A DNA stretch of 64,000 nucleotides from Streptomyces sp. NBC_01275 (GTDB lineage: Bacteria; Actinomycetota; Actinomycetes; Streptomycetales; Streptomycetaceae), in NCBI RefSeq assembly GCF_026340655.1, contig NZ_JAPEOZ010000001.1:4712001-4776000 (forward strand). Reading direction: 5' to 3'. How positions within the stretch are numbered: position 1 is the first letter of the stretch; each line of letters starts with the position of its first letter. The notes beneath the pieces are model-generated. The model did no database searches. It was not told where the DNA came from and worked only from the letters and a program-made list of their open reading frames with translations. This document shows, in pieces, positions 48,169-48,421 of this stretch. The translations under genes and the position numbers were made by a program.

Positions 48169-48241
48169 GAGACCTACTCCCTACGCCGGCATTACCCGGT
48201 AACAGGTTCGGCGGTCGACGCAGCGGCTACCGCCTGCCGAG

Positions 48242-48255
48242 GTTTCATGTGAAAC
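48242..48255. other. parS-like site (1 mismatch) in the riboswitch
   Basis: GTTTCATGTGAAAC; position 7 is T in place of C. Confidence 0.6.
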
Positions 48256-48274
48256 ATCACTCGAATCAAGTGAC

Positions 48275-48288
48275 GTTCCACGTGAAAC
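48275..48288. other. parS-like site (1 mismatch) in the riboswitch
   Basis: GTTCCACGTGAAAC; position 4 is C in place of T. Its centre is 33 bases from that of the previous site, about three helical turns. Confidence 0.65.
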
Positions 48289-48421
48289 ATCGCGAAGACG
48301 GAGGTCAGCGCCCTCTCAGCCCGGTGCTCCGAGCTCCCGCGTGTGCAAAGGTGGCTCCACGCTAGCGTCAATTCGGGCGCGGTGAACAGAGCGCCCCCGT
48401 CGTTCTTGCGATGATCGGTCG

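Follow-up and report, generated by a model that had tools for sequence, protein, structure and literature searches.

A parS-like site in the P3a arm of the thiC TPP-type riboswitch of Streptomyces

Introduction

P3a is a variable arm of TPP riboswitches. The parS consensus, GTTTCACGTGAAAC, is a 14-bp palindrome. In excerpts of a study that includes ParB ChIP-seq in S. venezuelae (PMC4852455), 16 parS sites are given for S. venezuelae and 23 central ones for S. coelicolor. The excerpted main text describes both sets as origin-clustered, like the sites reported here, and makes no mention of thiC; it prints the S. coelicolor parS as GTTTCACCTGAAAC, one letter from the consensus. Excerpts of a second paper (PMC12511625) number the parS sites 16 in the introduction and 17 in the ChIP-seq legend, and describe ParB as a CTP-dependent clamp. 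Titles and opening lines of abstracts in the open-licence literature, supplements excluded, yielded no description of a parS site inside a riboswitch, which is weak evidence of absence.

Here we analyze the thiC leader in a 64,000-nucleotide stretch (hereafter the window; G000:C1:4712001-4776000) of a 10.4-Mb Streptomyces genome, designated G000. The leader is like the TPP riboswitch family (RF00059, THI element) in its conserved core, its full-length match to the family model and its place before thiC; it differs in an arm of 104 bases that carries parS boxes and in a score under the gathering cut-off. The boxes in turn are like chromosomal parS sites of the ParABS system in being 14 bp long with one mismatch, in lying near oriC among 29 sites and in the positions at which mismatches are tolerated, whereas they differ in sitting within a transcribed structured leader, amid a predicted RNA helix.

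Results

A TPP-type riboswitch with a long arm precedes thiC

The features of the thiC leader are as follows.

46342..48168, minus strand: thiC, 608 aa, an open reading frame with its start at 48168
48161..48350, minus strand: TPP-type riboswitch aptamer of the thiC leader (RF00059 match), its 3' end overlapping the thiC start
48314..48319, minus strand: the aptamer's invariant CUGAGA (sequence and RF00059 model alignment)
48210..48313, minus strand: P3/P3a arm, 104 bases separating the conserved halves (sequence; length classes in relatives)
48177..48209, minus strand: GAACCUG...GCCGGCGUAGGGAG half of the aptamer (sequence and RF00059 model alignment)
48178..48182, minus strand: GGGAG, a likely ribosome-binding site (read from the sequence)

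An initial annotation of the window had reported that CTGAGA (complement of 48314-48319) and the GAACCTG...GCCGGCGTAGGGAG half (within 48177-48209, minus strand) are intact and lie far apart. Indeed, both are present, and the gap from CTGAGA to GAACCTG...GTAGGGAG is exactly 104 bases (48210-48313). The covariance-model search that the annotation had proposed returned a match to RF00059 over the whole model, directly before a thiamine gene (48350-48161, minus strand; E = 3.4e-5 in a 4.5-kb search), but at 38.8 bits, under the gathering score of 54.3. In the model alignment, both parts of the core, CUGAGA and GAACCUG...GUAGGGA, are intact in the window's leader. The weak score alone does not signify a broken aptamer, because scores drop as the arm lengthens, from 51.1 to 37.3 bits among nine relatives with arms of 31-106 bases, all of them below 54.3. 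A genome-wide RF00059 scan recovered the window's thiC leader only in part (91 bases, 31.4 bits) and failed to detect the thiC leader in 6 of the 16 genus genomes scanned, shortfalls that we attribute to the long arms.

The GGGAG motif sits within the aptamer's conserved GUAGGGA, with the ATG nine bases further on. Its place in the 3' strand of the aptamer suggests control of thiC translation. A promoter and terminator scan of 48150-48550 found nothing.

Two parS-like boxes lie in the arm, within the parS zone around dnaA

A parS pattern search located two boxes in the arm.

48275..48288, minus strand: box 1, GTTTCACGTGGAAC in mRNA sense, one mismatch from parS, the conserved copy
48242..48255, minus strand: box 2, GTTTCACATGAAAC in mRNA sense, one mismatch from parS

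The two 14-mers, 33 bp apart, had been noted before and their coordinates were verified; each is one mismatch from parS and neither is perfect. Across the window, 12 matches to GTTTCACGTGAAAC were found at up to three mismatches versus 0.67 expected, and none of 100 shuffles reached 12. Judged from the sequence, the same bases would thus form the arm of a TPP-type aptamer and a parS-like site, as had been claimed.

G000 contains 29 parS sites at no more than one mismatch, 22 perfect and seven with one, whereas a reversed-pattern control gave none. All 29 lie between 4,576,613 and 4,922,769, a zone of 346 kb around dnaA and parB, and the 22 perfect, origin-clustered sites agree with the consensus GTTTCACGTGAAAC. 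dnaA has its best match at 4,813,741, and the best parB match (G000:C1:4806695; TIGR00180, 206.6 bits) is 7 kb from it. thiC is ~53 kb from dnaA, so it falls within the parS-bearing zone. The seven imperfect sites, which include both thiC boxes, share this zone with the perfect ones, which favours counting single-mismatch forms as parS.

The site is all-or-none among relatives

Every genus genome except G073 yielded a thiC match (149 of 150); G099, whose leader is at a contig end, and G037 were unparsed, leaving 147 genomes in the arm counts. Named genomes supplied 80 more thiC loci, of which 31 entered the arm parse and 30 yielded an aptamer, and 178 leader loci were parsed in all. No aptamer was parsed in L058, L229 or the placeholder L230; L210 and L213 gave two arm lengths each, of which the longer was kept, and both are without parS; L003 and L031 are one strain. 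Arm lengths in this parse extend to ACCTG, so the window's 104 bases count as 106. The 178 loci fall into length classes of about 25-34, 43-66, 70-75, 81-97 and 103-107 bases.

The best parS match within the arm has no mismatch in 9 genomes, one in 57, two to four in none and five to nine in 81. Carriers, defined by at most one mismatch, therefore make up 66 of 147 genus genomes, numbers that are not independent events since the genomes are kin to one another. The site is all-or-none across the 147 genomes and is not peculiar to the window's strain. Carriers with species names include S. antibioticus DSM 40234 (L035) and S. murinus NRRL B-2286 (L043). The arm, which had been taken for a one-off insertion, is instead lineage-wide and repeatedly remodelled. 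Relatives with P3a but without parS, which had been named as evidence against a shared element, account for 81 of 147 genomes; in the window's own clade of the thiC tree, however, all 48 leaves are carriers.

In nearly all carriers, the first box begins 25 bases past CTGAGA (24 in L212, 26 in L141 and L142, 31 in L044). Strict helical phasing of the two boxes is not claimed, as spacings of 33, 32, 30, 22, 21 and 17 all occur. A shift of thiC towards the origin was ruled out as the cause of parS: distances to dnaA on the same contig are equal with and without the site, the medians being 53.3 kb in carriers (n = 54) and 51.5 kb in non-carriers (n = 66, one of them at 421 kb).

Arms without parS in the 49-66 base class (for example L145 and L073) are often tipped by another near-palindrome, CCGTAC...GTACGG, and the tip is palindromic both with and without parS. 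In G025, three thiC matches were found; the arms of its two parsed leaders measure 48 and 63 bases, and neither contains parS.

The history of the site was traced on a quickly built tree of 117 thiC genes with 56 carrier leaves, which includes thiC genes for 60 of 118 further leaders. Carriers need at least five parsimony changes on this tree (three on a 59-row tree) versus 39 when shuffled, and four of the five are forced by well-supported branches. The carriers comprise the window's 48-leaf clade, the pair G103 and G059, L044 alone, and a group of five that has perfect boxes, different flanks and two non-carriers nested within it. Several independent gains are plausible, yet a single carrier group is not rejected (p-AU 0.088) and gains are indistinguishable from losses; losses or gene transfer are possible. 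Loss of one of two boxes by recombination between them was also considered. Four 73-base single-box arms, which carry the box-2 form, differ at 3-6 positions from a collapsed two-box arm and four other single-box arms at 8-13, a difference that is only suggestive.

The two boxes are predicted to pair in RNA

The structure of the two-box class was assessed on an alignment of 32 distinct 106-base arms, the window's included. Its helices, with the fraction of paired cells, are listed below.

48308..48312 with 48217..48221, minus strand: P3, five pairs; 100% paired in 32 sequences; absent from the window's lowest-energy fold
48297..48302 with 48229..48234 (GGCGGU), minus strand: lower P3a helix; 97.4% paired; no pairs changed on both sides
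48284..48292 with 48238..48246, minus strand: middle P3a helix; 99.3% of cells paired; one pair with changes on both sides
48270..48279 with 48251..48260, minus strand: upper P3a helix; 97.5% of cells paired; three pairs with changes on both sides

In the middle helix, a flank and the left part of box 1 pair with the right part of box 2 and its flank; in the upper helix, the right part of box 1 and a flank pair with a flank and the left part of box 2. Together, P3, the lower helix and the box 1-box 2 pairing leave 98.4% of cells paired in the 32 arms. Four pairs and 16 cells are changed on both sides, and 3 of 500 and 0 of 500 shuffles, respectively, reach as high; a set of four covarying pairs is modest, however, and folding of these same sequences is what first gave the structure. 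Kinship can inflate covariation scores without structure, though least for measures that count pairs or types. RNAalifold on the alignment also returned the long arm. The alternative of two separate parS hairpins reaches 97.5% paired, yet has no pairs changed on both sides versus 1.8 in shuffles. The comparison thus favours a single long P3a helix, with box 1 predicted to pair with box 2. The long irregular helix envisaged by the initial annotation is supported by folds and comparison, whereas its suggestion that each palindrome folds on its own is not favoured for the two-box class.

When the window's 190-base leader was folded alone, the lowest-energy fold kept the box 1-box 2 helix (z = -3.3, equalled by 2 of 200 shuffles), while a GGCGGU/ACCGCC stem replaced P3 and the lower helix. 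This stem had been proposed from the sequence, and its complementarity (48229-48234 with 48210-48215) is real. It was rejected as a conserved element, since among the 32 sequences with arms of this length only the window and one other have the required G, and across relatives the 48229-48234 strand pairs with 48297-48302. In the window's strain, the modelled stem may compete with P3 and the lower helix.

The two boxes differ in how well they match parS. In the 106-base class, box 1 has exactly one mismatch in all 32 arms, whereas box 2 has one, two, three, four and five mismatches in 7, 7, 8, 5 and 5 of them; the window's arm is one of seven with both boxes within one mismatch. Among 94-base arms (15 loci), box 1 has at most one mismatch in all 15, and box 2 has one mismatch in one and two to four in 14. 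As read from these alignments, box 2 mostly decays as parS, yet its predicted pairing with box 1 continues.

Discussion

A putative ParB loading site hosted by an expendable arm

We think it probable that the expendable P3a arm of the origin-near thiC hosts a putative ParB loading site, whose palindrome in DNA is at the same time a helix in RNA and would hence be tolerated. The explanation builds on the arm and its boxes, their conservation pattern, the covarying pairing and the location. P3a length and tip vary freely among relatives, and in the window's clade the tip would have become parS. We infer that ParB would load in DNA on box 1, and also on box 2 where this is near-perfect, as at any parS. 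Because parS is palindromic, its transcript is self-complementary and would lengthen the RNA arm rather than open it; the TPP pocket (P2, P4/P5) would stay untouched, and TPP binding would tolerate the arm. A second copy beside the first, presumably a duplication, would extend the arm further, with one copy paired to the other. Selection at the DNA level would then maintain box 1 as parS, and box 2 would survive mostly as its RNA partner. Points against this explanation are that neither box of the window is a perfect parS, that P3 is lost in the window's own lowest-energy fold, that the genome-wide RF00059 scan recovered the leader incompletely and that 81 of 147 genomes lack the site. The observation that started this analysis is confirmed, and the interpretation then given to it is partly supported.

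It is unlikely, though the strongest of the competing accounts, that the two layers interfere: ParB bound at or spreading from the thiC leader would lower or time thiC transcription, the one-mismatch box would be deliberately weakened, and segregation would be coupled to thiamine synthesis. The invariable single mismatch of box 1 in the 32 arms of the 106-base class, compared with 22 perfect among the 27 other sites of G000, fits this account, as does the excerpted report that raised ParB strengthens repression of promoters beside strong parS sites in Pseudomonas aeruginosa (PMC5521831). Against it stand the nine genomes of 147 with a perfect box and the 81 with no site at all, and the common one-mismatch form may be merely inherited. 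We likewise regard as improbable the claim that the thiC P3a is dual-coded, with mutual effects between the loading of ParB on DNA and the sensing of TPP by RNA: transcription of the leader would clear ParB, ParB on a deliberately imperfect parS would tune thiC, and origin segregation would be coupled to thiamine supply.

A very unlikely account confines the boxes to RNA, as arms of the P3a helix whose likeness to parS is incidental or reflects a sequence need of the RNA. Folds predict a helical arm for parS-free relatives as well, and box 1 is predicted to pair with box 2, as this account would have it. A helix alone, however, would allow pairs within the box to be swapped as freely as flank pairs, and box pairs hardly swap. 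In the 21 single-box arms, the three flank pairs nearest the box form in every one of the 21 and switch type (G-C to C-G, A-U to G-C or C-G, U-A to C-G), whereas box pairs 1-3, 5 and 6 are invariant and pair 4/11 alternates between U-A and U-G only. By parsimony over the 56 carriers of the tree, box columns 8, 9 and 11 changed seven, two and seven times and the other 11 of 14 columns not at all, while each of 12 flanking columns changed 2-17 times; L120 and L130, carriers outside the 117-gene tree, are altered at column 4.

The 14-mer is parS, and the mismatches it tolerates are those of other origin-near parS sites, which favours parS identity over a role in RNA only. Outside thiC, all but one of 18 single mismatches lie at the position pairs that also vary in the thiC box (4/11, 6/9 and 7/8); the tally covers G000, G007, G009 and G067 (three of six additional genomes searched are counted), and its binomial value of 6e-6 is too favourable, as some of the sites are probably orthologous. 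The box-2 form GTTTCACATGAAAC also stands outside thiC: it was counted 56 times across 46 of the 150 genus genomes, and its reversed control not once. The occurrences comprise 25 in thiC leaders, 17 within 10 kb of dnaA, two at 10-200 kb and three far away, and nine more on contigs without dnaA, one of which is the G099 thiC leader at its contig end. The 17 hits at this second origin-near place (for example G007:C1:251066 and G067:C1:4844101) are possibly one orthologous site.

TPP riboswitches away from thiC also lack the 14-mer. No 14-mer within two mismatches of parS was found in 30 loci (~3.1 kb each) around such TPP hits, in 14 of which the arm was parsed (the 110 bases of L324 are probably a misparse). 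By RF00059 scan coordinates, the 36 hits away from thiC in 16 genus genomes have spans of 88-138 bases, with a few low-scoring ones possibly false, and the two in G000 span 112 and 108 bases; the long arm is thus specific to the origin-near thiC copy.

Least credible of all is an inherited relic, an ancestral parS that landed in the arm, has no function today and has been drifting ever since: its presence is clustered on the tree (5 changes vs 39 shuffled) and a single carrier group stands at p-AU 0.088, in keeping with inheritance, but 11 of 14 columns are unchanged over 56 leaves, 0 of 147 genomes have two to four mismatches, and box 2, a built-in control, has two to five in 25 of 32 arms.

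If a ParB loading site is indeed hosted by the arm, the thiC leader would be a clear example from nature of a single stretch read twice, in DNA as a protein site of centromere type and in a metabolite-sensing RNA as a helix, and would suggest as a rule that RNA stems can house palindromic protein sites cheaply. The arm would carry its own control, with box 1 retained as parS and box 2 mainly as a pairing partner, and it would offer a ready test for interference between the loading of ParB and the transcription of structured leaders.

Other features of the window and its genome

The ParB partition family is matched a second time at G000:C1:3065971-3066483 (minus strand; 121 bits, above the cut-off), 1.7 Mb from the origin-near parB. 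Two one-mismatch parS sites of the window, at 15626-15639 and 39195-39208, are inside long, GC3-rich putative open frames, not between them. At 55118-55243 (minus strand), the window also contains a match to the Streptomyces RNA Scr3920 (RF02828, 135.6 bits). Additionally, parS sites of G000 frequently occur in close pairs 18-68 bp apart, which resemble the two boxes of thiC (G000:C1: 4748382/4748418, 4771027/4771049, 4780135/4780153, 4786804/4786826, 4793742/4793786 and 4883923/4883991).
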